Notes: generated by a model from the sequence alone, not told the origin. Positions 7,350-59,217 are shown, counted from the stretch's first letter. The stretch: DNA of 59,340 nucleotides from Frigoribacterium sp. MEB024 (GCF_000878135.1 NZ_JXQZ01000018.1:1-59340); one strand, 5' to 3'. Translations and numbers: made by a program.

Positions 7350-8785
7350 CGACCGCCCGCGCCCGCCGCACGAGCTCGCTCGGCGCGTTGCTCGCCGCCG
7401 GCGGCGCGGTCGCCACGGCGCGCGCGACGTCCCTGTTGCTCGCCGCCGTGCAGATCCCCCTCGTCGCCCGGCTGCTGCCCGCCGACGAGTTCTCCATCGT
7501 GCCGGCATCCGTCCAGCTCGCGGGCCTGGTCGGTCTGCTCGTCGCCGACCCGGCCGTCCTGGCGTTCCAGCGGCGCCCAGGGGCCGCGGACGACCGCCGC
7601 CACTACCGGTGGGCGCTCCGGTGGACGATCCTCGGTCTCACCCTGGGGGCCGTGGCGCTCGTCGTCGCGGGCGCCGCCTCGGGACTGCTCGAGTTGGCCG
7701 TCGGCGTCGCAGGGTGGACCCTCGGCATGACCGTCAACCGCCTCTCGGCAGTCGCCTGGCTCATGTGGGGTCGGGAGTGGCGGTACACCGCTGCCCTGCT
7801 GGCCAGCACGGCCACGCGCACCGCCGTGCTGCTCGGCACCCTCGTGGCCGGGTGGTCGGCGCCCCTCGCCGTGGCGTCGGCGGGCGCGGCCTCCGCGGTG
7901 GTCGCGATCGTCGCCGCGCCGCGACGACGTCCCGCGGACGACGCCGAACCGTCGGCATCGGCCGGCGGCGATGACGTGACCCCCGACGTGCACCGCCCGA
8001 CGCTGCGGCTCGGAGCAGGCCTGGCCGTCGGCCAACTGGGCATCCAGGTGCAGTCCGTCGCGCCCCTCCTCGTCGCGACCGCCCTGCTCGGCACGGCGGC
8101 GACCGGTGCGCTCGGCGCCGCGACGCAGGTCGCCGCCGTGGTCGCCGCCTGTCTCAACCTGGGCACGACGCTGGCGTACCCGCGTCTGCGCCGGACGTGG
8201 GATTCAGGAGGCGCGGGTGCGGTCCTGACCGTCGCGCGCCTCCTCGTCGGGGGGTGCTTCGCCGTCGGGGCCTGGGCCGTCGTGACGTTGTGCCTCGGTG
8301 ATCTGGCCCTGCTGCGCCGGGCCCTGCCCTCCGGCCTGGTGGACGGCCGCCTCGTGGTGGCCGTCACGGTCGGCGTCTGCCTGTCGTCGATCGGCCTCGT
8401 CTCGTCGTGGCTGCACCAGTTCCGACTGCACACGGCCCTGATCGCCCGACGATCCCTGTTCACCGCCGGCGTGGCCGTCGGACTCGTCGCCGCCGGAACA
8501 CTCGTCGGTGGCGTGACCGGTGCCACCGCGGGTGCCGTCGTGGGACTCTCGGTGTACGCGACCTCGATGATCGTCGGCAGCGGACTGCTCGGCCCGGGCT
8601 GTCTCGCCTCCGTCGTCGGCCTGACCGCCACGGGCCTGGGCGTGATCGTCGCGGGCGACGAGTCCTGGACCCTCGTCGCCACCGGTGCCGCGGTACTCGC
8701 CCTGGCAGGTACGGCACGGCTCGTGCTGCAGGTCCGACGGCTCGTCTCGCGCGACGGGGTGCCTCTTCTCGGCGGCACGACATGA
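7346..8785 (+). CDS. Wzx-like polysaccharide flippase
   Basis: 479 aa with about 12-14 hydrophobic segments and few charges between them, the profile of the polysaccharide transport branch of the MOP superfamily. It should flip the undecaprenyl-linked repeat unit across the membrane. A low-complexity loop at about residues 190-210 contains most of the acidic residues. The start overlaps the capG stop (ATGA at 7346). The dispersed 9-mer occurs at 8217 in a cytoplasmic or external loop (DSGGAGAV). No catalytic motif exists for this family, so the call rests on topology and context. Confidence 0.75.
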   Translation: MTTARARRTSSLGALLAAGGAVATARATSLLLAAVQIPLVARLLPADEFSIVPASVQLAGLVGLLVADPAVLAFQRRPGAADDRRHYRWALRWTILGLTLGAVALVVAGAASGLLELAVGVAGWTLGMTVNRLSAVAWLMWGREWRYTAALLASTATRTAVLLGTLVAGWSAPLAVASAGAASAVVAIVAAPRRRPADDAEPSASAGGDDVTPDVHRPTLRLGAGLAVGQLGIQVQSVAPLLVATALLGTAATGALGAATQVAAVVAACLNLGTTLAYPRLRRTWDSGGAGAVLTVARLLVGGCFAVGAWAVVTLCLGDLALLRRALPSGLVDGRLVVAVTVGVCLSSIGLVSSWLHQFRLHTALIARRSLFTAGVAVGLVAAGTLVGGVTGATAGAVVGLSVYATSMIVGSGLLGPGCLASVVGLTATGLGVIVAGDESWTLVATGAAVLALAGTARLVLQVRRLVSRDGVPLLGGTT

Positions 8786-9954
8786 GGGCCCTGAGAGGAA
8801 CGACGAGCGAGAGCGTCCTCGTGACGCTCGGGCTCCTGGCGCTGGTCGCGACGCTGACCCCCCTCGGCGAGAGCACGGTCGCCGCCCTGGGCGTGCGGGT
8901 CGTCGGCGTCGCACTCGTCGTGGTGGCCGCGGCGCGGACGCGCGCGCCTCGACGCGGCGACGTGGCCTGGCTCGGAGGCCTGATGGCCTCGATCGCCCTC
9001 TACGTCGTCGTGGGCACCTTCTTCCACGGCCAATGGGTCGACGGGATCGTCACCCTCGCCTCGCTCGTGGTCGTCACCTCGGCTCTGCTGTTCGCCCTGC
9101 GGCGTCTCGATCCGGCGGTGTTCCTCACCGCCTGCCGTCGGGTCCTCACGGCGAGCGTCCTGGTCTCGCTCGCCCTGGGCGTGCTGACGCCCGACACCGC
9201 ACTCGAGATGGGCAGGCTCCGGGGTGCGTTCGAGAACGCGAACTCCACGGGTTTCGTGGCGCTGGCCCTCGGCACGCTGACCCTGCTGCGCCCGCGGGGC
9301 GCCTTCTCGACGGTGGTCGCCGTGGGTGGCGTCGCCGCGGCCCTGGCCTGGAGCGCCAGTCGCACGAGCGCCCTCGCGCTGCTGATCGTCGTCGTGATCG
9401 TCCTCATCGCGCGACGATCGGCGACCCTCGTGCTCTTCGCGTTCGTGGTCGCCGTCGGCGTGCTGTGCCTCTGGGCGTGGCAGCCCGAGGTGCAGACCGT
9501 GCTCGACGGTCTCCTGCGTGGCACCGACTCCCGCTCGGCGACGACCGACCTCGCCGTGGAGGTCTTCCGCCGCCGGCCCGAGATCGGCATCGGCATCGGC
9601 AACGAGCACGGCACCCATGTGAGCAGCCCGATCATGGCGTTCGTCCACGCCGGCCTCGCGGGCGCGATCGCGTTCGCCGGGATGGCGGCGGCCTTCGTGC
9701 TCCCGGCCGGCAGAGGCGGGTGGAGCTCGTGGACCGTCACGCTCGCGCTGCTCGTCCACAGCACCGGCGAGTCCTGGCTGCTGAGTCCGATCAGCCCGAT
9801 GCTGCTCGTCTCCCTCTGCGTCTGGCGCGGGGTCGTCGGGACCGACCCGGTGCTGCGTCGACGCGACCCCGAGCCGCCCGTGCCGGACCTCGCCCCGTCG
9901 ACCGCCCTCTGTCTCGTCCCGTCCGCCCCCTCCCGTTCGAAGGTGACCTCATGA
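8782..9954 (+). CDS. Wzy-like O-antigen/capsule polymerase
   Basis: 390 aa, about ten membrane segments. The phrases GAFENANSTGF, ASRTSALALL and RRPEIGIGIGNEHGTH match the conserved spots of the Wzy/WaaL family, where a large external loop carries the catalytic Arg and His residues. It should polymerise repeat units outside the membrane. Start ATG 8782 overlaps the flippase stop. An open frame continues upstream, but it is Arg-rich out-of-frame sequence of the flippase gene. Confidence 0.75.
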   Translation: MRALRGTTSESVLVTLGLLALVATLTPLGESTVAALGVRVVGVALVVVAAARTRAPRRGDVAWLGGLMASIALYVVVGTFFHGQWVDGIVTLASLVVVTSALLFALRRLDPAVFLTACRRVLTASVLVSLALGVLTPDTALEMGRLRGAFENANSTGFVALALGTLTLLRPRGAFSTVVAVGGVAAALAWSASRTSALALLIVVVIVLIARRSATLVLFAFVVAVGVLCLWAWQPEVQTVLDGLLRGTDSRSATTDLAVEVFRRRPEIGIGIGNEHGTHVSSPIMAFVHAGLAGAIAFAGMAAAFVLPAGRGGWSSWTVTLALLVHSTGESWLLSPISPMLLVSLCVWRGVVGTDPVLRRRDPEPPVPDLAPSTALCLVPSAPSRSKVTS

Positions 9955-11108
9955 CCCCCCTCTTCGCCGTCTTCGCACCGCACTTCCCGCCGGCCTCGGC
10001 CGGGGGCGGGCCGATCCGCAGCCTGGACGCCCAGACGGCCAGCATCCCCGACGGCACGAGGGTGTTGGTCCTCACCCGCGACCGGGACGTCGGCTCCATG
10101 ACGCGCCTCGACGTCCCCTCGGGCGAGTGGACCCGTCACGGCGACGTGCCCGTGTTCTTCGCCGACACGACGTCGGTGCCCGCCCTTCTGCGAGCCTTCG
10201 CGGCGGTCCGAGCCCGGCGTCCGGACTACGTGTGCCTGAACACGTTCTTCGGCGTGGCCCTGTCGCTCGCCCCGCGGCTGCTCGGTCGCGTCGGCTGGTG
10301 GCGTGGAGCGCGCATCGTGATCGCGCCCCGGGGTGAGTTCGGCAGCTGGGCCCTGGGCTCGAAGGCCGCGAAGAAGAAGGCCTTCATCGCCGCCTTCCGA
10401 CTGCTCGGTCTGCACCGTGGCGTCATCTGGCACGCCGCCACGCCCGACGAAGCCGACGACGTCCGCGCCGTCTGGGGCCCCACCGCCCAGGTCGTCGTCG
10501 ACACCCCTCGGTCCCCGCTGCCGGCGACCGCCCGACGAACGGCACCGGCGCCGGCACCGGTTCTGAGAGCGGTCAGCTACGGCCGCCTCACCCACCTCAA
10601 GGGCCTCGACCTGGTGCTGAGAGGGCTGGCCGGGCTGCCCACGGGCACCCGGCTGCACCTCGACGTGGTCGGCCCGCCCGAGGACGCCGCGTTCGTCTCC
10701 GAGTGCCGACGGTTGGCCGCCGACCTGCCCGCGGGCATCACGGTCGCCTTCACCGGGCTGCTCGACCACCACGACGTCCAGACGGCACTGTCCCGGTACC
10801 ACGTCGCGTTCATGGGCACCCTCGGCGAATCGTTCGGACACGCGTTGGCCGAGGTGCTGTCGGTCGGCTGCCCCCTGCTCGTCGCCGACACGACCCCGTG
10901 GACGAGCGCGATCGCGGGAGGCGCGGGCCTGGTGGTCCCGGACGTCACCGCGGACGCGTGGGCGGCCACGATCGCGCGGTTCGTCGCCCTCGACGAGGAC
11001 GCGCGCCTCGCCCTCCGCGAAGGAGCCGCCGACGCGTTCGAGCGGGCACAGGACGATGCCGCCCCGCATCTGTTCGAGCGCGTCCTCGCCGCGGACCGGC
11101 ACCGCTGA
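9951..11108 (+). CDS. Glycosyltransferase family 4 protein
   Basis: 385 aa GT-B fold. The N-terminus FAPHFPPASAGGGPIRSL carries the Gly-rich acceptor loop. IAPRGEFGSWAL in the middle and FMGTLGESFGHALAEVLSVG near the C-terminus form the EX7E-like donor site of GT4 enzymes. It should add a later sugar of the repeat unit in the cytoplasm; the sugar cannot be told. The start overlaps the polymerase stop (ATGA) with AAGGTGA upstream. It is the last gene of the operon. Confidence 0.82.
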   Translation: MTPLFAVFAPHFPPASAGGGPIRSLDAQTASIPDGTRVLVLTRDRDVGSMTRLDVPSGEWTRHGDVPVFFADTTSVPALLRAFAAVRARRPDYVCLNTFFGVALSLAPRLLGRVGWWRGARIVIAPRGEFGSWALGSKAAKKKAFIAAFRLLGLHRGVIWHAATPDEADDVRAVWGPTAQVVVDTPRSPLPATARRTAPAPAPVLRAVSYGRLTHLKGLDLVLRGLAGLPTGTRLHLDVVGPPEDAAFVSECRRLAADLPAGITVAFTGLLDHHDVQTALSRYHVAFMGTLGESFGHALAEVLSVGCPLLVADTTPWTSAIAGGAGLVVPDVTADAWAATIARFVALDEDARLALREGAADAFERAQDDAAPHLFERVLAADRHR

Positions 11109-11156
11109 GGCATCGGGGCCACTCGCCCCCTCTCGCTCGCGTTCCCGTTCCCGTTC

Positions 11157-11197: not shown

Positions 11198-11212
11198 TCG
11201 GCGGCGCGCTGC

Positions 11213-11313: not shown

Positions 11314-12516
11314 TCACTCGATGGCGGGCTCCGGCGCAGGAGGCGCGGTGAGGTACTCGCCGAGGGTGTCGTCCTGCAGGGCCTCGCGCAGCGGGTAGAG
11401 CGCCTCGACGTCGAGCTGGACGTACGACTGCCCGTCCGCGGCGACGCCTCCACCCGCCGTGGGCAGGGTGAAGGTCTGCACCGCCGACGGTGACAGCGAC
11501 CGGGAGCCCCACCCGATCTCGACCAGACGACCGAAGGTGAGTCCGGGGTCGACCGAGAGGTGCTCGGTGACGGCTCCGACGAAGTCCGACACGGTGGCCG
11601 GTGAGCTGAGCGTGCCCCGGTCGACGACGCCGTCGATCAGACCCCGCATGAACGCCTGCTGGTTGCGCACCCGCTGGTGGTCGGCGTCGGCGAACGGGTG
11701 ACGGGCCCGGACGAAGTCGAGGGCCTGCCGCCCGTCGAGGTGGTTCGGGCCGGCGACGAAGTCGTGCCCCTTGACCGTGAACGCCTTCTCGGAGACGACG
11801 TCGACCCCGCCGAGGGCGTCGGTCATGGCCTGGAACCCGGCGAAGTCGATCTCGGCCACGTGGTCGACCCGCACCTGCAGCAGTTGTTCGACGGTCTGCA
11901 CCGTCAGGGGGACGCCACCCCAGCTGTAGGCGGCGTTGATCTTCGCCATGCCGTGACCGGGCACGTCGACCCAGCTGTCCCGCATGATCGACATGACGTA
12001 CGCGGCCCGGCGGTCGGCGGGGAGGTGCACGAGCATCATCGAGTCGGAGCGACCCGCGGCCCCGGCCTCGCGGGTGTCGGAGCCGAGCAGGAGGACGTTC
12101 AAGGCCCCGGTCTCGTCGGCCACCGGGCGATCGACCTCGGCGGGGAAGGCCTGCTCGATGGTCGTCGTCCGGTCGCCGTAGGTCGAGGCGATGTGCCCCA
12201 GGTAGCCCGCGACGAACAACGCGCCGACGGTCGGCAGCCCCACGACGACACCGGTGATCCAGGCCGTGACCGCGATCCACCGGCGACGTCGGCGGCGCTG
12301 AGTCACGCCCGACTCGACCTGCTCACGCTGGCGCAGTTCACGCCGCGACCGGGGCTCGCCGAGACCGAGCGTCGCGAGACCGTCGTCGGGGTCGACCCCG
12401 TCGACCGGGGTCGGGCCCGAGCGCGTGACGGGGGCGGAGGCGGAGGGCGTCCCGAGCACGCGGCGGGTCGTGGTCGGGTCGCGGTCGTCGCCGGACGACG
12501 GGCTTCTCTCGGGCAT
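11314..12516 (-). CDS. LytR-CpsA-Psr (LCP) family polysaccharide-wall ligase
   Basis: 400 aa. An Arg-rich cytoplasmic N-terminus of about 80 residues precedes one membrane segment (ITGVVVGLPTVGALFVAGY). The external LCP domain has NVLLLGSDTR, GRSDSMMLVHL, SIMRDSWVDVPG, KINAAYSWGG and the Asp/Arg-rich DFVRARHPFADADHQR motif that binds the polyprenyl pyrophosphate. LCP enzymes move glycopolymers from undecaprenyl pyrophosphate to peptidoglycan. Lying tail to tail with the polysaccharide operon, this one likely attaches that polymer to the wall. AAGAGGA lies 5 bases before the ATG. The last codons contain the dispersed 9-mer in antisense. Confidence 0.88.
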   Translation of the reverse strand: MPERSPSSGDDRDPTTTRRVLGTPSASAPVTRSGPTPVDGVDPDDGLATLGLGEPRSRRELRQREQVESGVTQRRRRRRWIAVTAWITGVVVGLPTVGALFVAGYLGHIASTYGDRTTTIEQAFPAEVDRPVADETGALNVLLLGSDTREAGAAGRSDSMMLVHLPADRRAAYVMSIMRDSWVDVPGHGMAKINAAYSWGGVPLTVQTVEQLLQVRVDHVAEIDFAGFQAMTDALGGVDVVSEKAFTVKGHDFVAGPNHLDGRQALDFVRARHPFADADHQRVRNQQAFMRGLIDGVVDRGTLSSPATVSDFVGAVTEHLSVDPGLTFGRLVEIGWGSRSLSPSAVQTFTLPTAGGGVAADGQSYVQLDVEALYPLREALQDDTLGEYLTAPPAPEPAIE

Positions 12517-14064: not shown

Positions 14065-14110
14065 GGGACGCAGGAGGCGCGGGTCACCCGACCCGCGCCT
14101 CCTGCGTCCC
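14065..14110. terminator. 20-bp perfect hairpin built from two inverted copies of the dispersed 9-mer
   Basis: Arms 14065-14084 and 14091-14110 are perfectly complementary around a 6-base loop. Each arm contains GGAGGCGCG or its complement. It lies between the converging acetyltransferase and beta-glucosidase genes and would end both transcripts. Confidence 0.85.
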
Positions 14111-15350: not shown

Positions 15351-17105
15351 TCAGGAGGCGCGGTGCGACCGGCGCGGGTTCGGCACCGCGTCGAGCAGGG
15401 TCACCGTGTAGGGGTCGGTCGGCCGCTGCAGCACCTCGGCCGTGTGCCCCCGCTCGACCACGGCACCCTGGTTGAGCACCATGATGTCGTCGGTGATCAG
15501 CCGGGCACTGAGCAGGTCGTGGGTGATGTAGAGCATCGACACGCCCCACTGTTCGCGGAGGTCCTCGAGCAGCGCCAGCACGCCGGCCCGCAGCGAGACG
15601 TCGAGCATCGAGACGGGCTCGTCGGCGATGATCACCTGCGGGTCGCTCGCGAGCGCCCGGGCGATCACGACGCGTTGTCGCTGACCACCCGACAGCTGGT
15701 GCGGCAGCTTCGCCGCGAACTGCTCGACCGGCGTCAGACCGACCGTCTCGAGCAGCTCGAGCACCCGGCGCCGCGCCTCCTGGCCGGTCAGGCCGGTGTA
15801 GTTCACGACCGGGCGCGTCAGCGTGTACTCGACCGTGTGCAGCGGGTTCAGCGCGGCGTACGGGTCCTGGAAGACCATCTGCACGTCGCTGCGGAAGCTG
15901 CGGAGCGCGCGTCCCCGGAGCTTCGTCACGTCGGTGTCGCCGAACGAGACGCTGCCGCTGGTCGGCTTCTCGACGCCGGTGACGAGCTTGGCGATCGTGC
16001 TCTTGCCCGAGCCGCTCTGCCCGACGAGGGCGAGCGACTGACCCGGTTCGAGCGTGAACGACACGTCGCGGACGGCGCGCACGGGGTCGTCGCCCCGCCG
16101 AGGAGGCGCGTAGGTCTTGGTCACACCGTTCACGGTGATCGCGTGCTGCGCCGTGCGCTGGCCGCGCGTGGCGACGGTCGGCACCGAGGTCGTCGTGTCG
16201 ACGCGGCGGTCGCCCCGGGCCCGACGGACCGAACGGTCCTCGAAGCCGGGCAGCGAGACGACCTCGGCGCGCGGGTCGGCGTAGTGCGACAGCAGCATCT
16301 TCGTGTAGTCGTCCTGCGGGTCGGCGAGCACGTCGGCCGAGCGGCCGTCCTCGACGATGCGTCCCTCGTGCATCACGAGCACGCGCTGCGCCGACTCGAG
16401 CACGATGCCGAGGTCGTGGCTGATCAGCACGGCCGTGAAGCCCTCGCTCTGCTGCAGCGAGATGATCGTGTCCATCACGGCGTGCTGCACGAGCACGTCG
16501 AGGGCGGTGGTCGGCTCGTCGAAGACCATCAGCTGCGGCTCGAGCGACAGGGCGAGGGCGATCGAGACGCGCTGGCGCATGCCGCCGGACAGCTCTCCCG
16601 GGAACCGCGCGAGGACGCCCGGGTCGAGTTCGACCTTGGCGACCAGCTCGGCGGCGCGGGCGTGCCAGCGGTCGCGCGGCACGTGGCCGTGGGCCTTGAA
16701 CACGTCGACGAAGTGGTTGCGGATCGTGCGCACCGGGTTCAGCGCGTTCATTCCCGACTGCAGCACCATCGCGAAGCCACCCTGTCGCTGCTGACGCAGC
16801 GCCTCGGTGTCGAGGTCGCGGACGTCGGCGCCGTCGAACCAGATGCTGCCGCCGTTGGTCCGCGCCGGTGGCTTCTGCAACCGGGTCAGTGCGTAGCCGA
16901 GCGTCGACTTGCCCGAGCCGGATTCGCCGACCAGGCCGACGAACTCGCCCCGCTTCAGCCGGAACGACACGTGGTCGACGGCCTGCACCGGCTCCGCGCC
17001 GGCGCTCTCGTAGACGACGCTGAGGTCGCGGACGTCGAGCAACACGTCGTCGGAGGACGAGGGCGAGGAGGCGGTGGGCTGGTCGGTGAGGTCCGTGGCG
17101 GTCAC
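15351..17105 (-). CDS. Opp/Dpp-type ABC transporter, fused double ATPase
   Basis: 584 aa with two complete ATPase halves. The first has Walker A GESGSGKST at about 60-68, signature LSGGMRQRV and Walker B LMVFDEPT. The second has GQSGSGKST, LSGGQRQRV and VIIADEPV. The two halves correspond to DppD and DppF joined by a linker with an RRARGDRR stretch. It powers uptake with the two permeases upstream. GTG 17105 overlaps the permease stop (GTGA), and AAGGAGG 7 bases before it is part of the dispersed 9-mer. The gene ends R-A-S-stop, also formed by that 9-mer. Confidence 0.92.
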   Translation of the reverse strand: MTATDLTDQPTASSPSSSDDVLLDVRDLSVVYESAGAEPVQAVDHVSFRLKRGEFVGLVGESGSGKSTLGYALTRLQKPPARTNGGSIWFDGADVRDLDTEALRQQRQGGFAMVLQSGMNALNPVRTIRNHFVDVFKAHGHVPRDRWHARAAELVAKVELDPGVLARFPGELSGGMRQRVSIALALSLEPQLMVFDEPTTALDVLVQHAVMDTIISLQQSEGFTAVLISHDLGIVLESAQRVLVMHEGRIVEDGRSADVLADPQDDYTKMLLSHYADPRAEVVSLPGFEDRSVRRARGDRRVDTTTSVPTVATRGQRTAQHAITVNGVTKTYAPPRRGDDPVRAVRDVSFTLEPGQSLALVGQSGSGKSTIAKLVTGVEKPTSGSVSFGDTDVTKLRGRALRSFRSDVQMVFQDPYAALNPLHTVEYTLTRPVVNYTGLTGQEARRRVLELLETVGLTPVEQFAAKLPHQLSGGQRQRVVIARALASDPQVIIADEPVSMLDVSLRAGVLALLEDLREQWGVSMLYITHDLLSARLITDDIMVLNQGAVVERGHTAEVLQRPTDPYTVTLLDAVPNPRRSHRAS

Positions 17106-18055
17106 TTGCGCGCCTCCTTCTTCTGCTTCGCGCCTTCGCGAAGTCGGGGGTTGCCGACGGCGTCGACGCCGAAGTTGATCAGGGTCAGGCTCATCGCCAG
17201 CAGGGCGATGCAGAGGCCGGGCGCGAAGAGCAGGATCCACTGGCCGGTGAGCAGGGCGTTCGAGTTCTGCGCCCAGTAGAGGATCGTGCCCCAGCTGACG
17301 ATCGACGAGTCGCCGAGCCCCAGGAACTCGAGGCCGGCCTCGGCAAGGATCGCACTGGTCGCGGCACCGAAGAACGAGCCGGTGATCAGCGAGGTCATGT
17401 TGGGCAGGATCTCGCGGAACACGATGCGTCCCGCGCTCTCGCCCGAGAACCGTGCCGCCGTGACGAAGTCGCGCGATCGCAGCGACTGCGTCTGGCTGCG
17501 CAGCACGCGCGCACCCCAGGCCCAGCCGGTGATGACGATCACCGCGAGGATCACGGTGATGCCGCCGTTCTGCAGGTAGGCCGCGATGACGATCATCAGG
17601 GGCAGGCCCGGGATGACGAGGAACAGGTTCACGATGAACCCGACGACGTCGCCGCCGAAGCCCTTCATGTAGCCCCAGCTCAGCCCGATCGCGACGGCGA
17701 CCAGCGTCGACAGCACGCCGGCGACGACGCCGACGAAGACGCTGATGCGGGCGCCGTAGATCAGTTGGCTCAGGACGTCCTCACCGGCGGCCGTGGTGCC
17801 CATCCAGTGGGCCCAGCTCGCGTCGGCGTTGCGCTCGAAGCCGTTCTCGCTGCCGCCGTAGGGCGCGAGCAGCGGGGCGAAGATCGCGACGAGGACGAAG
17901 ACGCCGAAGATGACGACGCCGATCTTCGCCTTGGGGTTCGACCAGATGGTCGCGGCCATGCGGCCGATGGTGAGCCAGCGACTGGGCGCCTTCTGCTCGG
18001 CGGGGCCGGTGGGAGGCGCGCCCTCGGGCAGGTGGACGGACACGGTGGAGGTCAT
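17102..18055 (-). CDS. Opp/Dpp-type ABC permease, DppC-like
   Basis: 317 aa, about six membrane segments after a 40-residue cytoplasmic lead. The EAA loop reads RFSGESAGRIVFREILPN, where the ATPase docks. WMGTTAAGEDVLSQLIYGARIS is the family's hallmark segment in the first external part. ATG 18055 overlaps the stop of the DppB-like gene (ATGA). Both its N-terminal tail and its last codons carry the dispersed 9-mer. Confidence 0.92.
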   Translation of the reverse strand: MTSTVSVHLPEGAPPTGPAEQKAPSRWLTIGRMAATIWSNPKAKIGVVIFGVFVLVAIFAPLLAPYGGSENGFERNADASWAHWMGTTAAGEDVLSQLIYGARISVFVGVVAGVLSTLVAVAIGLSWGYMKGFGGDVVGFIVNLFLVIPGLPLMIVIAAYLQNGGITVILAVIVITGWAWGARVLRSQTQSLRSRDFVTAARFSGESAGRIVFREILPNMTSLITGSFFGAATSAILAEAGLEFLGLGDSSIVSWGTILYWAQNSNALLTGQWILLFAPGLCIALLAMSLTLINFGVDAVGNPRLREGAKQKKEARK

Positions 18056-20773: not shown

Positions 20774-20995
20774 TCGCATGGGCGCAAGCAGGGGAACTCG
20801 AGAAGACGCGCCGACCTGCCGCTCGGGTCCGACCGTGAGCGTCACGTCATCGCCTCTCCGGGCCGCGAACCCCGGAGGACGAGGAGGCGCGAGGTCGTTC
20901 GACGCCGAGCCAACCGTCAGGGGATGCCCGGGCCCGCACGCCAGAATCGGCGTCGGGTGCCGGTCGCGGTGCCCCGGCCGACCGGAGGGACCCCT

Positions 20996-22360
20996 ATGGC
21001 GAGCACGACGCAGCTGCGAGCGCTCCGCGCCTCGCTGCCCGTGGTCGCCGAGCGGGCGCGCGACATCGCCGACGAGTTCTACCGCCGCCTGTTCGGCACC
21101 CGACCCGATCTGCTGCGCGACCAGTTCAACCGCGGCGACCTCGCGCAGGGGCGGCAGCAGCGCGAGCTCGCCCGCACGATCGTCGCGCTCGCACAGGCCG
21201 TCCTCGACGCGGCCCCGGGGTCGACGCGCGGCGAGGGGGCCGACCGGCACCGCGCCTCCTCGGGGGGCCGACCGTCCGGCGGGGACGCCGCCCGCCAGGC
21301 CGGGGCGCCGACCCTCGCGCCGGCGACACCCGGTGAGATCGTCTCGCGATTGGCCCAGCGGCACGCGGCACTCGGCGTCACCCGCGACGAGTACGACCTG
21401 TTCGAGCGGCACCTCGGCGAGGCGTTCGCGGTCGCCCTCGGCCCGGACCTCACGGCCGACGTCGCCGACGCCTGGGCGGCCGTCTACCGTCAGGCCCGCG
21501 ACGAGATGGTGGCGACGGTCGAGGCGATCTACCGGCAGGCCGACCTCGAGCCCGGTGACGAGTGGCGCGAGGCCCTCGTCACCGAACACCGCGTGGAGGC
21601 CGAGGACGTGGTTGCGCTCACCCTGGTCTCGGCCGACAGCGAGGCCCTGCCCCGGTACCGCGCCGGCCAGTTCGCGTCGGTGCAGGTGCGGCTGGCCGAC
21701 GGGGCCCGGCAGATCCGGCAGTACAGCCTGCGCGGCGGTCACGACGAGCAGTGGCGGATCAGCGCCCGATTGCTGGTCGGCGAACCGCCCGCGCCCGACG
21801 GCGAGGTGTCGTCGCACCTGATGGGCGAGCTGCGGGTGGGCGACGTGGTGAGCGTGTCGCCCCCGATCGGGTCGCTGACCATCGACGACCTCGACGACGC
21901 CCCGCTGCTGTTCGTCTCGGCGGGCATCGGCTGCACGCCCGTGCTCGGCATGCTCGACCACCTGGCCCGGACCGAGCCCGACCGCGTCGTGACGGCGCTG
22001 CACTTCGAGCGCACGCCCGAGCGGCACGCGCACCGCGTCGAACTCGAGGCGCTGGTCGCGTCGATGCCGAACGCGACCCTGCGGGTCAGCTACACGCAGG
22101 GGTCGCTGTCGGCGCTCAGCGCGCTGGCCGAGGCGTCGATCGACGGGCCGGGCGTCTACCTCGACCCGATCGACCTGGCCCGGGTCGACCTGACCGCGTC
22201 GCACCGGGTGTTCCTGTGCGGACCGGTGCCGTTCATGGCGATCGCCCGGGCGGCCCTGATCGGCCACGGGGTCGACGCCGACCGCGTGCACTACTTCGTC
22301 TTCGGGCCCGACGACGGGAGCGTCACCGGCGCCGACACCGGGCAGGGCGGGCTCGGGTAG
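20996..22360 (+). CDS. Flavohemoglobin (Hmp type) with a 39-residue insert in the globin domain
   Basis: 454 aa. The globin domain (1-180) keeps Tyr29 in FYRRLF and the proximal His123 in AQRHAALGV. A reductase domain follows with RQYSLR (FAD) at 241-246, GIGCTP (NAD) at 311-316 and a C-terminal FLCGP. Such enzymes oxidise nitric oxide to nitrate. Residues about 74-112 are a Gly/Ala/Arg-rich insert between the E and F helices, encoded around a copy of the dispersed 9-mer at 21251. Start ATG 20996 has GGAGGGA 6 bases upstream. The importer operon diverges from it; a -10 may be CAGAAT at 20942-20947. Confidence 0.85.
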   Translation: MASTTQLRALRASLPVVAERARDIADEFYRRLFGTRPDLLRDQFNRGDLAQGRQQRELARTIVALAQAVLDAAPGSTRGEGADRHRASSGGRPSGGDAARQAGAPTLAPATPGEIVSRLAQRHAALGVTRDEYDLFERHLGEAFAVALGPDLTADVADAWAAVYRQARDEMVATVEAIYRQADLEPGDEWREALVTEHRVEAEDVVALTLVSADSEALPRYRAGQFASVQVRLADGARQIRQYSLRGGHDEQWRISARLLVGEPPAPDGEVSSHLMGELRVGDVVSVSPPIGSLTIDDLDDAPLLFVSAGIGCTPVLGMLDHLARTEPDRVVTALHFERTPERHAHRVELEALVASMPNATLRVSYTQGSLSALSALAEASIDGPGVYLDPIDLARVDLTASHRVFLCGPVPFMAIARAALIGHGVDADRVHYFVFGPDDGSVTGADTGQGGLG

Positions 22361-22398: not shown

Positions 22399-23568
22399 TC
22401 AGAGCGCGGGGCAGCTCTCGCGCAGCAGCACCTCGACCGGCAGGGTGACCCGCTGCGGCGGCGCCCCGGGGTCGGTGAGTCGTCGGACGACCGTGCGGAC
22501 GGCGATGCGGCCGAGTTCACCCATCGGCTGGCGCACCGTGGTGAGCCGGGGCCGGGAGAACCGGCCGGCGTCGATGCCGTCGAAACCCGTCACGAGCACG
22601 CGACCGGGCACGTCGACGCCCTGCTCGCCGAACACGTCGAGGACGCCGAGCGCCGACTGGTCGTTCGCGCAGAGGACGGCCCGGGGCAGGTCGCCGGTCT
22701 CGAGCAGCGCCGCTGCCGCACGACGACCGCCGGCGCGGGAGAACTCGCCCGGCTCGACCCGGACGGTGACGCGCACCCCGGCGGCGCGGTGCGCCTCGAC
22801 GGCCCGGTCGAACCCGGCGTGACGGTCGAGTTCGTCGGGCGAGTCGGACGGCCCGGCGACGTAGGCGAGGTCGTGCACGCCCCGCGTCCCCAGCACGAAG
22901 TCGGTCAGGGCGTGCATGCCGGCGACGTTGTCGACGCCGACGTGGTCGAGGTCGTCACCCGGCCTCGAGTCGGCGAGCACGACGACTGGGATGCGTCGCG
23001 AGACGTGCGCGAGCAGGTCGCCGGGCACCGTCTGGGCCAGCACCGCGAGCCCGTCGACCCGGCCCGCGATGTCGTTGACCATCACCTCGCGGCTCGACCC
23101 CCGGCCGGCGGCGACCATGAGGGCGAATCCCCGCCGCCAGGCCTCGACCTCGGCGCCGCGCAGCACTTCGTCGAAATAGAGGTTCGCCGGGTTCGACCCG
23201 TGGTCGGACGCAGGAGGCGCGGTGAGGCTCGTCGCACCGCGGCCCGGCTCGACGACGGTCGACGCCTCCACGCGCTCGCGGTCGTCGATCAGCGGGATGC
23301 GCGACGCGTCCGACACCCGAGCCCAGTCGGGTTCGGGGCCGTCGATGCCGTCGTGGCCCGGCAGGAAGAGCCCGAGCACGCCCGTGCGCCGCCCGGCGAG
23401 GCCGCGGGCCGCGCCGCTCGGCACGTAGCCGAGGGCACGCACCGACTCGAGCACCCGGCTGCGGGTCTCGGGGCGCACGTCGTCGGGACGGCGCAGCACC
23501 CTCGACACCGTCGCGATCGACACGTCGGCGTGGGCGGCCACGTCGTACACGGTCGGGGCCTTGGTCAC
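22399..23568 (-). CDS. LacI-family transcriptional repressor
   Basis: 389 aa. The N-terminal helix-turn-helix TVYDVAAHADVSIATVSRVL is followed by the hinge ALGYVPSGAARGLAGRRT and a periplasmic-binding-protein-like sensor domain. Between residues about 80 and 130 there is an extra, low-complexity stretch containing TAPPASDHG, encoded over the dispersed 9-mer. GTG 23568 has GGAGGA 6 bases upstream. A -10 TAGGAT lies at 23612-23607. Its likely target is the sugar importer/GH1 operon 2 kb away; effector unknown. Confidence 0.88.
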   Translation of the reverse strand: MTKAPTVYDVAAHADVSIATVSRVLRRPDDVRPETRSRVLESVRALGYVPSGAARGLAGRRTGVLGLFLPGHDGIDGPEPDWARVSDASRIPLIDDRERVEASTVVEPGRGATSLTAPPASDHGSNPANLYFDEVLRGAEVEAWRRGFALMVAAGRGSSREVMVNDIAGRVDGLAVLAQTVPGDLLAHVSRRIPVVVLADSRPGDDLDHVGVDNVAGMHALTDFVLGTRGVHDLAYVAGPSDSPDELDRHAGFDRAVEAHRAAGVRVTVRVEPGEFSRAGGRRAAAALLETGDLPRAVLCANDQSALGVLDVFGEQGVDVPGRVLVTGFDGIDAGRFSRPRLTTVRQPMGELGRIAVRTVVRRLTDPGAPPQRVTLPVEVLLRESCPAL

Positions 23569-23921: not shown

Positions 23922-24622
23922 CCGTGCGACTCGGCCTGTTGGCGATCCTCGACCAGGGCCCGGGCTACGGCTATCAGCTGCGCAGCGAGTTCGACCGGCG
24001 CACCGGGTCCACCTGGCCGCTCAACGTCGGCCAGGTGTACTCCACCCTCGACCGGCTCGACCGCGACGGGCTCGTCGAGCGCGACGAGCCCGCGCCGGAC
24101 GGCACGTCGCCCGAGGCCGAAGGGGCACCCGCCGCCGAGGCCTCGGCGGCGGGCACCACGCACCCCGTGGGCGAGCAGCAGCGGCTCTGGCGCATCACGG
24201 CCGCCGGGCGGGCCGAGGTCGCCCGCTGGCTCGGCACGGCCGTCGACACCCCCGACGCCACCCGCGACGAGCTGCCGCTCAAGTTCGCCCTCGCCGCGAC
24301 CCTGCCGGGGGTGGACGTGGCGACGCTCGTGCAGACGCAGCGCCGCGCCTCCTTGGCTAAGCTGCAGCGGCTGACCCGCACCAAGCACGCCGGCGGCGAC
24401 CCGGGCGCGCCCGGAGAGTTCGCCTGGCGCCTCGTCGTCGACTCGATGATCTTCGCGGCCGAGGCCGAGGTGCGCTGGCTCGACCACGTCGAGTCGAGCC
24501 TGCGTCGTGCGTCGCTCGCCGAACGGCAGTGGGCGGTCGAGGCCGTGGCCCCGACGACGGGTGTGCCCCGATCCACGGCCCTGACGCCGGACCCGGCACC
24601 CACCGCGCGAGGCCGGTCGTGA
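23918..24622 (+). CDS. PadR-family transcriptional regulator
   Basis: 234 aa. The winged helix reads LGLLAILDQGPGYGYQLRSEF, then NVGQVYSTLDRLDRDGLVE. The wing contains an Ala/Glu-rich insert of about 35 residues before QQRLWRITAAGRAEV. A C-terminal coiled helical domain follows. It leads an ABC exporter operon, with the next gene overlapping its stop (GTGA at 24619). PadR proteins in this position usually repress the exporter until a membrane-active drug or peptide binds. Confidence 0.88.
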   Translation: MTVRLGLLAILDQGPGYGYQLRSEFDRRTGSTWPLNVGQVYSTLDRLDRDGLVERDEPAPDGTSPEAEGAPAAEASAAGTTHPVGEQQRLWRITAAGRAEVARWLGTAVDTPDATRDELPLKFALAATLPGVDVATLVQTQRRASLAKLQRLTRTKHAGGDPGAPGEFAWRLVVDSMIFAAEAEVRWLDHVESSLRRASLAERQWAVEAVAPTTGVPRSTALTPDPAPTARGRS

Positions 24623-25347
24623 CCGGGCGCGCCGAGGTGCTGACCCTGCTCGGGGTGGGGCACGAACACGGAACCGGCGACCTCGCCCGCACCGCCCTCG
24701 ACGGCGTGAGCCTGACCGTCCTCGAGGGCGAACTGGTCGCCGTCATGGGCGCGTCCGGCTCGGGCAAATCGACCCTCTTGGCGATCGCGGGCGGCCTGAC
24801 GACGCCGACCGCCGGGCACGTGCAGGTCGACGGCACCTGGCTCGCCGACCTGAGCGCGGCCGAGGTCGCCCGGGTGCGACGCCGGTCGGTCGGCTTCGTG
24901 TTCCAGCAGTTCAACCTCGTCTCGACGTTGACCGCGGCCGAGAACGTCGCCCTGCCGCTCGAACTCGACGGCATCGGCACCCGTGCCGCCCGGCGTGCCG
25001 CCGACGACGCCCTGGCCGCCCTCGGCCTCGCCGGTCGCGGGCGGGCCTTCCCCGCCGAGCTCTCGGGCGGCGAGCAGCAGCGGGTCGCCATCGCGCGCGC
25101 CCTCGTCGGCAGCCGTCGCCTCGTCCTCGCCGACGAACCGACCGGCGCGCTCGACAGCAGCACGGGCGACGAGGTCATGGGCCTGTTGCGCGAACGGGTC
25201 GACGCAGGTGCCGCAGGCCTGCTCGTCACGCACGACGCCCGACACGCCGCCTGGGCCGACCGGATCGTGTTCCTCCGCGACGGCCGCCTCGTGGACGAGT
25301 CCGCGCCGCGAGGGCCCGAGTCGCTGCTGACCCCGGAGGCGCGGTGA
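24619..25347 (+). CDS. ABC exporter ATPase (MacB/LolD type)
   Basis: 242 aa. Walker A GASGSGKST, Q-loop VFQQFNLVSTLTAAENV, signature ELSGGEQQRV and Walker B LVLADEPTGALDSSTGDEV give the pattern of the FtsX-partner ATPases. GTG 24619 overlaps the padR stop and its own stop overlaps the permease GTG. The last codons (PEAR) contain the dispersed 9-mer, which also supplies GGAGG for the permease. Confidence 0.92.
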   Translation: MTGRAEVLTLLGVGHEHGTGDLARTALDGVSLTVLEGELVAVMGASGSGKSTLLAIAGGLTTPTAGHVQVDGTWLADLSAAEVARVRRRSVGFVFQQFNLVSTLTAAENVALPLELDGIGTRAARRAADDALAALGLAGRGRAFPAELSGGEQQRVAIARALVGSRRLVLADEPTGALDSSTGDEVMGLLRERVDAGAAGLLVTHDARHAAWADRIVFLRDGRLVDESAPRGPESLLTPEAR

Positions 25348-34674: not shown

Positions 34675-34718
34675 GACCCGCGCCTCCCGAGCTCGTGAGA
34701 GCCGAGGAGGCGCGGGTC
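34675..34718. terminator. Hairpin of two inverted copies of the dispersed 9-mer after the YihY gene
   Basis: Arms 34675-34687 and 34706-34718 pair over 13 bases around an 18-base loop. It lies 20 bases beyond the yihY stop on the minus strand and is the likely terminator of the four-gene envelope operon. Confidence 0.7.
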
Positions 34719-39320: not shown

Positions 39321-39386
39321 TCGCCCGGCCCGCCCGACCCGCCCGACCCGGCGGGCCGAGGGCCGACGAGCGCAGGAGGCGCGGCG

Positions 39387-41154: not shown

Positions 41155-42857
41155 CAGCCGGCGGCGGGCTCGGGGAGCGGCTCGGTGCTGGTGTCGCCGC
41201 GCAGGTTCTTGAGCAGGACCTCGGCGCTGATCAGGCACATCGGCAGGCCGATGCCGGGGCGGACCGACCCGCCGGCGTAGAACAGCGAGTCGACGCGGGT
41301 CGAGACGTTGCCGGTGCGGAACAGGGCGCTCTGGGCGAGCGTGTGCGCGGGACCGAGCATGCTGCCGCTCCAGGCGTTGACGTCGTCGACGAAGTCCCGC
41401 GGTCCGCGGGTGCGTCGGACCACGACGCGGTCGGCGAGGTCGGGCACGTGCGCCCACTCGGCGATCTGGGCGATGACGCCGTCGGCGAGCCGCTCGATCA
41501 TCGGGTCGCCGTCACCGTCGACGTCGCCGGAGCCGAGCGCAGGGTCGGCGGGCAGCGGCACCAGGACGAAGAGGTTCGTGTGACCGGCGGGCGCCGTCGA
41601 CGGGTCGACCGTGCTCGGTTTGCAGACGTACAGCGACGGCGGGTCGGGGATGCGCTTGTCGGCACCGAAGATCCGCTCGAAGTTCTCGTGCCAGTCCCGG
41701 GCGAAGAGCAGCGTGTGGTGCTCGAGCTCGGGGATCTCGCCCTCGACGCCCAGGTAGAGCAGCAGGGCGCTCGGCCCGGGGTTCTTCTTCGCCCAGTACG
41801 ACGAGTCGTAGGTGCGCAGCTCGCGCGGCAACAGCTGCGTCTCGGTGTGGTGCAGGTCGGCCGCGCTGACGACGAGGTCGGCGTCGACGCGGTGCGTCTC
41901 GCCCTCGGCGTCGGTCCAGTCGACCCCGGTCGCCTCGGCGGTCGCCTTCGAGCCGCGCGGCAGGGCAGCGCCCTCGGCTGCGAGCGGCTGCGTGACGATC
42001 TGCGTCACGGCCGCGCCGGTCACGACGGTCACCCCGGCCTCGACGGCCACGTCGCGGATCGCCTCGATCACCGAGATCAGGCCGCCCTGCGGGTACAGGA
42101 CGCCGTCGTCGAGGTCGAGCGTGCTCATCAGGTGGTACATGCTCGGGGTGTCGAACGGCGACGAACCGAGGAAGACCGCGGGGTACCCCAGGATCTGTCG
42201 GAGGCGCGGGTCGGTCACCGTGCGGGAGGCGTACGAGTCGAGGCTCGTCAGCAGCAGCCGCGCCAGCTTCGGCAGGCGCACCAGCACGTCGCCGCGCAGC
42301 AGCGGCGTGAGGCTGCCGAAGCTCGTGTAGAGGAACCGCCGCTTGGCGATCTCGTAGGTGTCGCGGGCCGAGCGCAGGTACCGGCGCATGCGTTCGCCGC
42401 TGCCGGGCTCGACGCGCTCGAAGAGCTCGACGTTCTGGTCGAGCCCGCGGGGCACGTCGATCGGTGCGCTGGCCGCGGGGTCGTCGGGCGTCGGCTCGAA
42501 CAGCACGCGGTAGCCCGGGTCGAGTTCGACGAGGTCGAGGCGCTCGGCCGCCGACGTGCCCATCAGGCGGAAGAAGTGGTCGAAGACCTCGGGCATGAGG
42601 TACCAGCTCGGGCCGAGGTCGAAGCGGAAGCCCTCGTGGCTCCACGACCCGGCGCGGCCGCCGACCTCGTCGTTCTTCTCGAGCAGGGTGACCTCGTGGC
42701 CTTCGCGGGCCAGCAGCGCGGCCGAGGCCAGGCCGCTGATGCCACCACCGATCACGACGACGCGGCGGCCGTGGCGGGTGACGCTGAGGCCGTGCGACTC
42801 GTCGGGCGCACCGGTGCCGGCCCCCGTGGCCCCGCGGTCGACCGTGTCGCGGCTCAT
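41154..42857 (-). CDS. crtI: Phytoene desaturase
   Basis: 567 aa FAD-dependent desaturase. The dinucleotide fold [13 protein letters not shown] is at 33-45, the family phrase [21 protein letters not shown] follows, and [21 protein letters not shown] closes the FAD site at the C-terminus. Converts phytoene to lycopene. An insert of about 18 residues, [18 protein letters not shown], interrupts the middle domain. The start lies 3 bases inside the crtB stop (ATGA). Confidence 0.93.
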
Positions 42858-45716: not shown

Positions 45717-45756
45717 CCCGGCCCGCGCCTCCTGCGCTCTCCGTGCTCGACGCGGC

Positions 45757-51108: not shown

Positions 51109-51204
51109 GCCCCCATCATGCCGACCTCTCCTCCACGGGCGGTAGTGCCCGACCGGATCCCCCGAGGAGGCGCGGTGCCCTGCCGCGACGCGGCCCCCGC
51201 CCCA

Positions 51205-51210: not shown

Positions 51211-51216
51211 GACCGC

Positions 51217-53478: not shown

Positions 53479-54503
53479 CCGACACCGCCGAGAACCCGAC
53501 CGGCACGGTCGAGTCGACCCGCGCCTCCGTGCAGACCATGCCGCTCGGCAAGGCGATCAACGCCGGACTCCGCCAGGCCATGGCCGACGACCCGCGCGTC
53601 CTGCTGATGGGAGAAGACATCGGCACGCTCGGTGGCGTCTTCCGTGTGACCGAGGGGCTGCAGGCCGAGTTCGGCGAGAAGCGCGTCATCGACACCCCGC
53701 TCGCCGAGTCGGGCATCGTGGGCACCGCGATCGGACTCGCGATGGGTGGCTTCCGCCCGGTCTGCGAGATCCAGTTCGACGGCTTCATCTACCCCGGCTT
53801 CGACCAGATCACGTCGCAGCTCGCCAAGATGACCAACCGTCACGAGGGTGCGGTCACGATGCCTGTCGTGATCCGGGTGCCCTACGGCGGACACATCGGC
53901 GCGGTCGAGCACCACCAGGAGAGCCCCGAGGCGTACTTCGCCCACACGGCGGGCCTGCGCGTCGTCAGCCCGAGCACACCGCACGACGCCTACTGGATGA
54001 TCCAGGAGGCGATCGCGTCGAACGACCCCGTCATGTTCTTCGAGCCCAAGAGCCGCTACTGGCCCAAGGGCGAGGTCGACCTGAGCGACCCGCAGGCGCC
54101 GCTGCACGCGAGCCGTGTCGTCCGGACGGGCACCGAGGTCACCCTGCTGGGGCACGGAGCGATGGTCAGCGTGCTGCTCCAGGCGGCCGAGATCGCGGCA
54201 GCCGAGGGTGTCTCGGCCGAGGTCGTCGACCTGCGCTCGCTCTCGCCGGTCGACTACGGGCCCATCCTCGAGTCGGTCCGCAAGACCGGGCGTCTCGTGG
54301 TGGCCCAGGAGGCCCCCGGTTTCGTCTCGGTCGGCTCCGAGATCGCCGCCACCGTGGCCGAGAAGGCGTTCTACTCGCTCGAGGCGCCCGTGCTGCGCGT
54401 CAGCGGCTTCGACGCCCCCTTCCCTCCTGCCAAGCTCGAGACGCAGTACCTGCCCGACGCCGATCGCGTGCTCGAGGCGGTCGACCGGGCCCTGGCCTAC
54501 TAG
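53475..54503 (+). CDS. 2-oxoacid dehydrogenase E1 beta subunit
   Basis: 342 aa. [48 protein letters not shown] and [22 protein letters not shown] match the transketolase-like beta chains. GAGGGGG lies before ATG 53475. The N-terminal 15-residue tail holds the dispersed 9-mer (STRASV). Overlaps the E1 alpha stop. Confidence 0.9.
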
Positions 54504-56031: not shown

Positions 56032-56109
56032 CGCCGCGCCTCCCCGTCCGTTCCTGAGAACGGCGCGGTCGGCCGGGTCCTCACCTGGCTGGGGAGGGAC
56101 GGCGTGGAC

Positions 56110-56934: not shown

Positions 56935-57393
56935 TCAGAGGTCGAAGAGGGGCTCGCCCGAGGCGACGGTCGTGCCGACGGCCCGCTGCGAGACGCTGTC
57001 GGGGGTGCTGTCGAGCACGACGACCGGGATGACCGCCGAGTAGCCCGCCTCGGCCACGACGGCCGGGTCGAAGCGGACGACGAGGTCGCCCGCCGCGACG
57101 GTCGCGCCCTCGGCGACGGCGAGCTCGAAGCCCGTGCCGCCGAGCTTGACGGTGTCGATGCCGACGTGCACGAGCAGGCCCGTGCCCGACTCCCCCACCA
57201 CGACGAACGCGTGCGGGTGCAGCTTGACGATCTCGCCCGCGACGGGCGAGACGACGGCGACCAGGCCGCCGGCAGGAGGCGCGCTCGGCTCGACCGCGAC
57301 GCCCGCGCCCACGAGCTGCCCCGCGAACACGGCGTCGGGCACCTCGGCGAGCGCCGTCACCCGGCCGGCGACGGGTGAGACGACCGTGGTCAC
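56935..57393 (-). CDS. PTS EIIA component, glucose/GlcNAc family
   Basis: 152 aa. The phosphorylated His76 lies in GLLVHVGIDTVKL with the partner His61 in KLHPHAF; SPVAGRVTALAEVPDAVFA is the N-terminal core. A loop VEPSAPPAGG is encoded over the dispersed 9-mer. It takes phosphate from HPr and passes it to EIIB. GTG 57393 overlaps the EIIB stop (GTGA). Confidence 0.9.
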   Translation of the reverse strand: MTTVVSPVAGRVTALAEVPDAVFAGQLVGAGVAVEPSAPPAGGLVAVVSPVAGEIVKLHPHAFVVVGESGTGLLVHVGIDTVKLGGTGFELAVAEGATVAAGDLVVRFDPAVVAEAGYSAVIPVVVLDSTPDSVSQRAVGTTVASGEPLFDL

Positions 57394-57623
57394 GGCAGCA
57401 GGTCGTTGATGTCTTCGGCGAGCGAGTCGGCGATCGTGCCGACGATCACCTGGACGCTGCCGCCCGCGTGGACGACGGCCGTCGCTCCCGCGGCCTTGAG
57501 GGCGGCGTCGTCGACGAGGGAGACGTCCCGCACGTCGGTTCGGAGGCGCGTGATGCAGCCCTCGATCTCCTCGATGTTGTCGGCGCCGCCGAGTCCGTCG
57601 ATCATGGCCTGTGCTTTCGACAT
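57390..57623 (-). CDS. PTS EIIB component, glucose/GlcNAc family
   Basis: 77 aa from ATG 57623 with GGAGGAG upstream. The phosphorylated Cys23 lies in IEGCITRLRTDVRD. It is a free-standing domain, whereas in most bacteria it is fused to EIIC. Divergent from the EIIC gene across a 215-base gap with the GntR operator. Confidence 0.9.
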   Translation of the reverse strand: MSKAQAMIDGLGGADNIEEIEGCITRLRTDVRDVSLVDDAALKAAGATAVVHAGGSVQVIVGTIADSLAEDINDLLP

Positions 57624-57727: not shown

Positions 57728-57838
57728 ACAGGACCGGGCTGGCTCCGCGCTCGACGCGACCCGCGCCTCCCGAACCGCCTCCGCCCGCACGACACCCACC
57801 CCCGCACCACGGCTGCTCACCGACGAGAGGACCACCTG

Positions 57839-59122: not shown

Positions 59123-59154
59123 CCGAGACCCCCGTGCGCCCACGGGGGTCTCGG
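59123..59154 (+). terminator. 14-bp hairpin terminator after the EIIC gene
   Basis: Arms 59123-59136 and 59141-59154 pair perfectly around CGCC. Confidence 0.85.
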
Positions 59155-59178
59155 CGCATTCCTGGGGTGCCGACCAGC

Positions 59179-59217
59179 CGAGGAGGCGCGCTCGGTCGAC
59201 CCGCGCCTCCTCGTTTT
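59179..59217 (+). terminator. Intrinsic terminator from two inverted copies of the dispersed 9-mer plus T-run
   Basis: CGAGGAGGCGCG (59179-59190) pairs with 59202-59213 over 12 bases, and TTTT follows directly at 59214-59217. It is the only classical T-tailed terminator seen in the window and it isolates the next promoter. Confidence 0.75.

Follow-up and report, generated by a model that had tools for sequence, protein, structure and literature searches.

According to the excerpts of PMC12616744 that treat the subject, discrimination of DNA by means of short dispersed words is known from only two proteobacterial families. The DNA uptake sequences (DUS) described in PMC3630211, as far as the part consulted goes, occupy permissive positions and form terminator-associated inverted pairs, and an excess of mismatched forms is reported in the pertinent sections of PMC1939737 for the Haemophilus and gonococcal words. 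Here we describe a nine-letter word, GGAGGCGCG, in a stretch of 59,340 nt of Frigoribacterium sp. MEB024 (NZ_JXQZ01000018.1:1-59340; hereafter the window), which belongs to a draft genome of 3,406,371 b (G000). The word is dispersed, over-represented throughout the genus and maintained at the DNA level. We tentatively propose that it acts as a self-DNA signal of Frigoribacterium tied to natural transformation, which would work much as the uptake sequences of Neisseriaceae and Pasteurellaceae do.

The window holds 39 exact copies of GGAGGCGCG, 22 on the plus strand and 17 on the minus strand, whereas 100 dinucleotide shuffles of the same DNA gave a mean of 5.47 (standard deviation 2.61, largest value 13). 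The preliminary description of this DNA, which had counted about 34 copies (21 plus, 13 minus) between positions 8217 and 59210, was therefore right about the over-representation and understated its size; the copies at 4289 and 8207 begin before that range and the others fall within it. Throughout the draft genome the word occurs 2145 times (1075 forward, 1070 reverse), against 92 occurrences (44 + 48) of the reversed word. It is the most over-represented 9-mer of a 359-kb sample, with 212 copies where a third-order Markov model, a background of the kind that the preliminary description had called for, expects 11.9, and the top-ranked words of 7, 8, 10, 11 and 12 letters in this sample lie inside it or extend it. 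An A precedes 69% of the sampled copies and a G follows 68%; the extended consensus is AGGAGGCGCGG and the core GGAGGCGC. GGAGGCGCG is asymmetric, not being equal to its own reverse complement, and its ninth position tolerates change. A simple effect of GC content was rejected as the cause of its frequency, since the reversed word and 12 base-permuted words are rare in G000 (mean of the permuted words 21.7, against 233 for GGAGGCGCG). No regular ruler-like spacing was found: with close pairs collapsed, the coefficient of variation of the gaps between sites is 0.97, close to random.

Is the word a by-product of the proteins that it crosses? Genes were called by our own codon-usage caller, with no annotation. 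When synonymous codons are shuffled and the proteins held fixed, the 146 coding copies fall to a mean of 27.7 (standard deviation 4.4, largest of 100 shuffles 37), and in three genomes 156, 345 and 162 coding copies compare with 28, 60 and 40 after shuffling. An artefact of codon usage is thereby rejected, and the word outlasts the codon-aware background on which its refutation had been made to depend. The effect can be seen in single codons: glycine preceding GGC-GCG is encoded by GGA in 28/41, 73/100 and 26/51 cases, against 4.5-6.8% elsewhere.

Comparison among relatives points the same way. In five relatives at 91-95% identity, 146 of the 154 aligned copies are unchanged (94/100 coding and 52/54 noncoding; relative by relative, 20/20, 21/22, 21/22, 17/18 and 15/18 coding and 12/12, 9/9, 10/10, 11/11 and 10/12 noncoding); among neighbouring 9-mers matched in GC content the unchanged fraction is 0.40-0.585 in coding and 0.17-0.39 in noncoding DNA. 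Third codon positions are 96-100% identical within copies and 84-88% identical beside them. Distant relatives retain fewer copies (G015 8/14 coding and 0/2 noncoding; G001 5/7 coding and 0/1 noncoding). Across 12 named genomes, 685 of 1186 GGAGGCGCG sites are kept, as opposed to 16/145, 24/206 and 22/139 sites of three base-permuted control words chosen by hand; these figures cover 132 ordered pairs, each with an alignment of 4 kb or more, and the pairwise counts share sites and are not independent. The shuffles and the conservation relative to controls support the conclusion that GGAGGCGCG copies are held at the DNA level, either selected or actively maintained, and to that extent the selected genome-wide signal that the preliminary description had envisaged.

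The word is a property of the genus. All 16 Frigoribacterium genomes carry 1355-2305 copies, against 84-256 of the reversed control. In a family survey of 249 genomes from 85 genera, a clear excess outside Frigoribacterium was found in all four genomes of the related genus g32 (631-941 vs 172-236) and in one genome of g55 (1064 vs 337 for the control); the other three g55 genomes are near control (342 vs 242, 339 vs 417 and 316 vs 242), as is G129 of g45 (614 vs 486). GGAGGCG is in excess in the g55 genome G069 (337 vs 123), and 180 kb of this genome also contain the 12-mers TTCGTGCCGAAT and TTCGGCACGAAT seven times each, where 0.0 are expected. Among named genomes, GGAGGCGCG is abundant in all 12 Frigoribacterium that cluster with the window, and 22 others, including three Frondihabitans, lie near or below control (highest 116 vs 77). 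An anchor protein places the genome of the window in Frigoribacterium (Microbacteriaceae), the closest named entry, strain Leaf8, being 99% identical in this protein. Frigoribacterium sp. CG_9.8 has no excess of the motif (51 vs 49) and its anchor protein is only 67% identical; it is probably misnamed. Across 396 genomes sampled from the whole order, only G000 has a conspicuous number of copies of the 10-mer GGAGGCGCGG (1576 vs 54); g32, g55 and the other Frigoribacterium are absent from this sample.

Where do the copies lie? Of 212 sampled copies, 140 fall within genes and 72 outside them; our gene calls make 88% of this DNA coding. Coding copies lie mostly outside close pairs, the first and last tenths of genes are the richest in them, and antisense copies outnumber sense copies (90 vs 66, 206 vs 139 and 92 vs 70), about as the synonymous shuffle predicts. 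They favour variable segments, which differ from genus to genus: at 38 usable sites of 55, drawn from 45 of 490 genes, flanking identity is.535 against.633 for the gene as a whole (p.004). Sites that were unaligned or too near an edge made up 17 of 55 motif sites and 142 of 900 random positions. On these 38 sites, then, the word is not equally frequent in conserved protein cores, in keeping with the tolerant positions noted earlier. Density also follows base composition: tiles of 69-75% GC carry 2.2-4.3 copies per 5 kb and those below 69% carry 0.4-1.4, GC content being only a proxy for foreign origin. Between genes the distribution is uneven in G000, where genes hold 0.43 copies per kb, convergent gaps 4.0, tandem gaps 2.1 and divergent gaps 0.9. 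The gradient is weaker in G005 (1.8 convergent, 1.6 tandem, 1.1 divergent), and no gradient among the three kinds of gap was found in G015 with its nine intergenic sites.

Many intergenic copies form inverted pairs. We collected 42 noncoding +/- pairs within 100 b from G000, G005, G015 and G006, among which those of G000 and G005 may include orthologues. Their start-to-start distance is 20-21 b in 8/42 and 27-28 b in 18/42, and 41/42 are predicted to fold into hairpins below -15 kcal/mol. The stems recur in extended form, with spacer ends GGTC..GACC and GTGC..GCAC. In the 21-b class the six spacers, of 12 b each, are alike (mean identity 0.70, one identical pair); in the 27-28 b class, with spacers of 18-19 b, 13/18 start GTGC and the interiors are otherwise little alike (0.37-0.38). 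These intergenic pairs resemble a set of recurring modules.

Two explanations bear directly on these modules. The word could be the stem of a transcription terminator, selected as an RNA hairpin, and the enrichment in G000 between convergent and tandem genes, the stable predicted hairpins with their recurrent GGTC and GTGC extensions, and the copies of g32, most of which are of this kind, would all fit. As an account of the whole, however, it is highly doubtful, because about two-thirds of the copies are coding, mostly not closely paired, and antisense to about the degree that codons predict, and because terminators need pairing, not one fixed word. Alternatively, the intergenic pairs could be spread by a small mobile palindromic element of the kind known as repetitive extragenic palindromes (REP) or bacterial interspersed mosaic elements (BIME); a small spreading palindromic element had been one suggestion of the preliminary description. 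The recurrent spacers, some of which may belong to orthologous pairs, and the interior sequence common to g32 palindromes are what such an element would leave. For the bulk of copies the suggestion finds no support, and we regard it as scarcely probable. Most copies are coding, and where relatives carry an aligned non-identical copy the difference is ungapped in 54 of 65 cases and involves an indel in 11 (26/32 ungapped with 6 indels in seven genomes, 28/33 with 5 indels at seven further loci; unaligned sites, 67/258 and 33/84, respectively, were dropped), which argues against present/absent insertions. A RAYT (Y1) transposase is the defining partner of mobile REP and BIME palindromes. The corresponding profile (PF01797) was found in 0/16 Frigoribacterium genomes and in 5/14 control genomes. 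What survives of the suggestion is the module-like character of the intergenic pairs and the concentration of a similar word in intergenic palindromes of g32.

Other Microbacteriaceae carry words of their own. Genus g32 has CTGGAGGCGCG, with 531, 574, 72 and 535 copies in its four genomes against 25-32. In Agromyces, GGATGCCGC occurs 71 times in 105 kb where 5.8 are expected, and its coding copies number 58 against 6.5 after shuffling; the corresponding totals are 203 vs 29 for CGGATGCC in Cryobacterium and 58 vs 9.1 for GGATGCCG in Salinibacterium, for which our gene caller failed (0 coding bases) and total counts only are given. The Cryobacterium word is kept at 471/1066 sites against 0.256 for controls and the Salinibacterium 7-mer at 305/378 against 0.445, and these pairwise counts, like those for GGAGGCGCG, share sites. 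No clear excess of a high-copy word was found in Frondihabitans, and Leifsonia shows a slight excess at most. Read by eye, the words of different genera seem to have a GGAnGC frame in common, and those of g32 and the GGATGCC type recall the dialects of DUS. With slightly more reserve than for Frigoribacterium itself, we suggest that the Microbacteriaceae might possess self-DNA words that evolved independently as a third set (GGAGGCGCG for Frigoribacterium, CTGGAGGCGCG for g32 and, built on GGATGCC, those of Agromyces, Cryobacterium and Salinibacterium). This set would be the first in Gram-positives and would persist without type IV pili.

The intergenic palindromes of g32 (L149-L158 of G046, e.g. 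L157:19101) have the stem CGGmCTGGAGGCGCGG, often with the same interior, and lie mostly between convergent or tandem genes as REP-like or terminator modules. The GGATGCC-based family lies far above Markov expectation generally, and above synonymous shuffles in Agromyces (L056, L058, L059, L060 and L078) and Cryobacterium.

How could uptake maintain such a word? Transformation would have to occur in these bacteria, and a DNA-binding part of the transformation apparatus, located at the cell surface, would prefer DNA that carries the word. Conspecific DNA would then be imported via ComEA and ComEC, and its homologous recombination would restore mutated copies and spread new ones, so that this bias in uptake would be the maintaining force. 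Some 2,000 copies would accumulate where they are tolerated, in variable protein segments, at gene ends and in inverted pairs that can fold into hairpins. ComEC is present in all 16 Frigoribacterium genomes, and a ComEA homologue adjoins it in the five examined (G000, G006, G012, G014 and G015). In G000 a type IV pilus operon, whose genes were named from sequence and order, adjoins rpoC. An operon so placed is seen in three genera of Microbacteriaceae (L168 of G000, L154 and L167). The open frame of ComEC spans 839 aa in G006 and 830 in G014; that of G000 (L193:9586-13071) runs without a stop into a conserved downstream region where the G006 and G014 frames end, which may reflect a fusion or a difference of frame. 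A search for Flp/Tad pili by PilB-based tblastn recovered only type IV pilus loci in the sampled DNA, of which the coverage is partial.

A number of results weigh against the uptake proposal. The most direct concerns the pilus. Type IV pilins (PF07963) were found in 13 of 16 Frigoribacterium genomes and not in G002, G006 and G014, the absence of the pilus from G006 resting on a profile search for pilins. These three, which by matching counts are F. faeni NBRC 103066, Leaf263 and CFBP 13712, form one clade (100/100 in a 3.4-kb tree) that keeps the word in high number (2058, 2063 and 2167 copies; sampled density in G006, 0.76 per kb) and conserves its sites at 27/37, against 0.26-0.33 for controls, in pairwise counts that share sites and are not independent. 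Since the motif is kept there, type IV pili are not required for it, and in this clade the pilus cannot be the keeper of the word unless its loss was both repeated and recent. Conversely, 48 of the 84 genera sampled have pilins, and most of these lack GGAGGCGCG.

Near-miss words also go against the proposal. Words with one change at positions 1-8 reach 0.70-0.83 of Markov expectation, with no excess. Singly mismatched words number 355, 784, 654 and 258 in G000, G005, G015 and G006, and the means for 12 permuted words are 378, 828, 471 and 236; no clear excess is seen, all four genomes falling within the permuted range and only G015 standing well above the mean. In the complete genome G005, only 8 copies lie in the 100 kb made up by the five stretches closest to the terminus. 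In the G046 sample of g32, 31 of 41 copies are noncoding and mostly in palindromes, which leaves their link to the Frigoribacterium signal unclear. GGATGCC words are less conserved (Agromyces 72/195 against 0.233), and a single typed control word in Agromyces was kept at 12/16 sites. Finally, among the papers listed by literature searches there was no report of transformation in this bacterial group. Because two expectations, the type IV pilus and the near-miss excess, failed, we do not class GGAGGCGCG with the DUS or the uptake signal sequences (USS) of Pasteurellaceae. We nevertheless hold self-recognition of the uptake type to be the likeliest single reading, as the anatomy of the word matches that of neisserial uptake sequences.

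What else could hold a word so firmly? The main rival, which we consider unlikely but far from negligible, is that GGAGGCGCG is the binding site of a putative genus-specific chromosome-maintenance protein (a nucleoid organiser, a nucleoid-occlusion protein, or a repair or recombination factor) that would act inside the cell and without polarity, each copy being under purifying selection. Sharp specificity with little or no near-miss excess is what such a site would show, as are retention independent of type IV pilins and the scarcity of copies near the G005 terminus, if the site is one excluded from the terminus. This rival needs about 2,000 individually constrained sites, however, and it predicts neither the convergent-gene enrichment of G000 nor the preferred hairpin spacings. 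Nor does the depletion recur in G015, where 7 and 8 copies per 20 kb are found in the pair of stretches closest to the terminus, with no gap; given this, the motif-poor stretches of G005 (L140, L141, L204, L205 and L206) may be an acquired region, or may still reflect a terminus effect. Strong GC skew is seen in L140 and L141 (-0.13 and +0.11).

A polar signal is a different matter. High copy number, a coding majority and conservation within the genus would suit a Chi-type recombination site or a guide for FtsK of the KOPS (FtsK-orienting polar sequence) type. Chi and KOPS are usually strongly skewed with replication, and the bias in orientation is defining. In sampled stretches of two complete genomes, with dnaA placed in both, copies co-directional with replication and opposed to it number 267 and 254 in G005 (p 0.60) and 108 and 114 in G015 (p 0.74). 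The replication skew that the preliminary description had proposed to look for is thus absent from the sampled stretches of both genomes; a Chi- or KOPS-type role is largely refuted and very improbable. Of the segregation, recombination and uptake signals listed in that description, those that require polarity are disfavoured, and the uptake version, unproven and with two failed tests, fits the anatomy best.

The individual copies in the window illustrate these placements (strand in brackets; 'antisense' refers to the gene). The three hairpin pairs named in the preliminary description are all present. That at 14073..14081 (+) and 14094..14102 (-) is intergenic, 21 b from start to start, with convergent predicted genes on either side; that at 34679..34687 (-) and 34706..34714 (+), also intergenic between convergent predicted genes, is oriented -/+; and that at 59182..59190 (+) and 59202..59210 (-), 20 b from start to start, is intergenic and downstream of the PTS EIIC gene. 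A fourth inverted pair, at 8207..8215 (+, left arm) and 8235..8243 (-, right arm), 28 b from start to start, is coding and lies within a predicted gene at 7346-8785 that has no Pfam match. Other intergenic copies are found at 20883..20891 (+), 39375..39383 (+), 45724..45732 (-), 51166..51174 (+), 56035..56043 (-) and 57762..57770 (-).

The remaining copies are coding. At the left end, 4289..4297 (-) is antisense in a Polysacc_synt_2/epimerase gene (4025-5122), 10917..10925 (+) lies in a group 1 glycosyltransferase and 11339..11347 (+) is antisense in a LytR_cpsA_psr gene; positions 1-14000, with these polysaccharide-type genes (epimerase, glycosyltransferase, LytR), hold five motif copies in all, and the motif sites of this part align to no sampled stretch of relatives. 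One ABC-transporter ATPase gene holds three copies, 15354..15362 (+, antisense) at its C-terminal end, 15772..15780 (-) and 16102..16110 (+, antisense), the last two identical in 7/7 covering relatives. A permease gene with an OppC_N domain has one copy at its C-terminal end (17109..17117, -, identical in 7/7 covering relatives) and another at its N-terminal end (18012..18020, +, antisense), where 3/7 relatives have one mismatch and 1/7 an indel. Further antisense copies occur in a flavohemoglobin-type gene with Globin, FAD and NAD domains (21251..21259, -), a LacI-family regulator (23213..23221, +), a PadR-like regulator (24344..24352, -) and, at two places, in subtilase coding sequence (28292..28300 and 30209..30217, both +); an ABC ATPase gene carries 25335..25343 (+) at its end. 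The acetyl-CoA synthetase-type gene is marked at its N-terminus (30819..30827, -, antisense), at 32527..32535 (+) and at its C-terminal end (32812..32820, -, antisense), and the GT87 gene at its C-terminal end (37298..37306, +, antisense) and at 37729..37737 (-). The lycopene cyclase domain gene likewise has two copies (40374..40382, -; 40679..40687, +, antisense). Antisense copies also lie in an FAD-dependent amine oxidase-type gene (42200..42208, +), at the N-terminus of the transketolase-type gene that follows an E1 dehydrogenase gene (53520..53528, -), and in the PTS EIIA (57275..57283, +) and EIIB (57542..57550, +) genes.

If the uptake proposal is true, self-recognition has evolved again, in a type of cell without an outer membrane, and the origin of such words becomes open to study because neighbouring genera carry different ones. 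If the word does not serve uptake, some other force maintains a non-polar nine-letter signal at about 2,000 sites, which would itself be unusual. There is a practical lead as well: these bacteria might be easier to transform with donor DNA to which the word has been added. Among the papers listed by literature searches for uptake sequences in actinobacteria or Gram-positives, none is titled or summarised as describing such a word in actinobacteria, and with GGAGGCGCG as the search term no title among the matches listed concerned a motif of bacterial genomes.

How does GGAGGCGCG compare with the systems already described? Cyanobacterial HIP1, in the parts of PMC4390886 consulted, is also GC-rich, reaches very high copy number and is replaced by other words in some genomes. 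A motif made and held by DNA modification and repair in this manner, through an orphan methyltransferase and biased mismatch repair, would agree with the tolerance of variation at the last base of GGAGGCGCG and with the different words of different genera. HIP1, however, is palindromic and tied to methyltransferases, whereas GGAGGCGCG is asymmetric and occurs in intergenic inverted pairs, which such a mechanism would leave unexplained; we judge it distinctly unlikely. Competence in Micrococcus luteus offers a precedent for actinobacterial transformation with widespread homologues of ComEA and ComEC (PMC4322843). It differs in requiring Flp/Tad pili, and that paper contains neither 'uptake sequence' nor 'sequence-specific'.

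The Pasteurellaceae USS resemble GGAGGCGCG in having a 9-bp core with weaker flanks and one orientation that is commoner in reading frames (PMC1939737 and PMC2346458, from the sections consulted), and also in the richness of the first and last tenths of genes. They differ in an AT-rich extended flank that is not seen here and in the over-representation of their mismatched forms, which is not clear here. The DUS of the Neisseriaceae belong to other bacteria and consist of an unrelated word; in the Actinobacteria studied here, type IV pilins are dispensable and near misses not clearly enriched, and the signal is known from sequence alone. Even so, it is the DUS, as portrayed in the part of PMC3630211 consulted, that come closest in anatomy, with their thousands of copies on both strands, permissive coding positions, hairpin-capable inverted pairs and dialects of the word.

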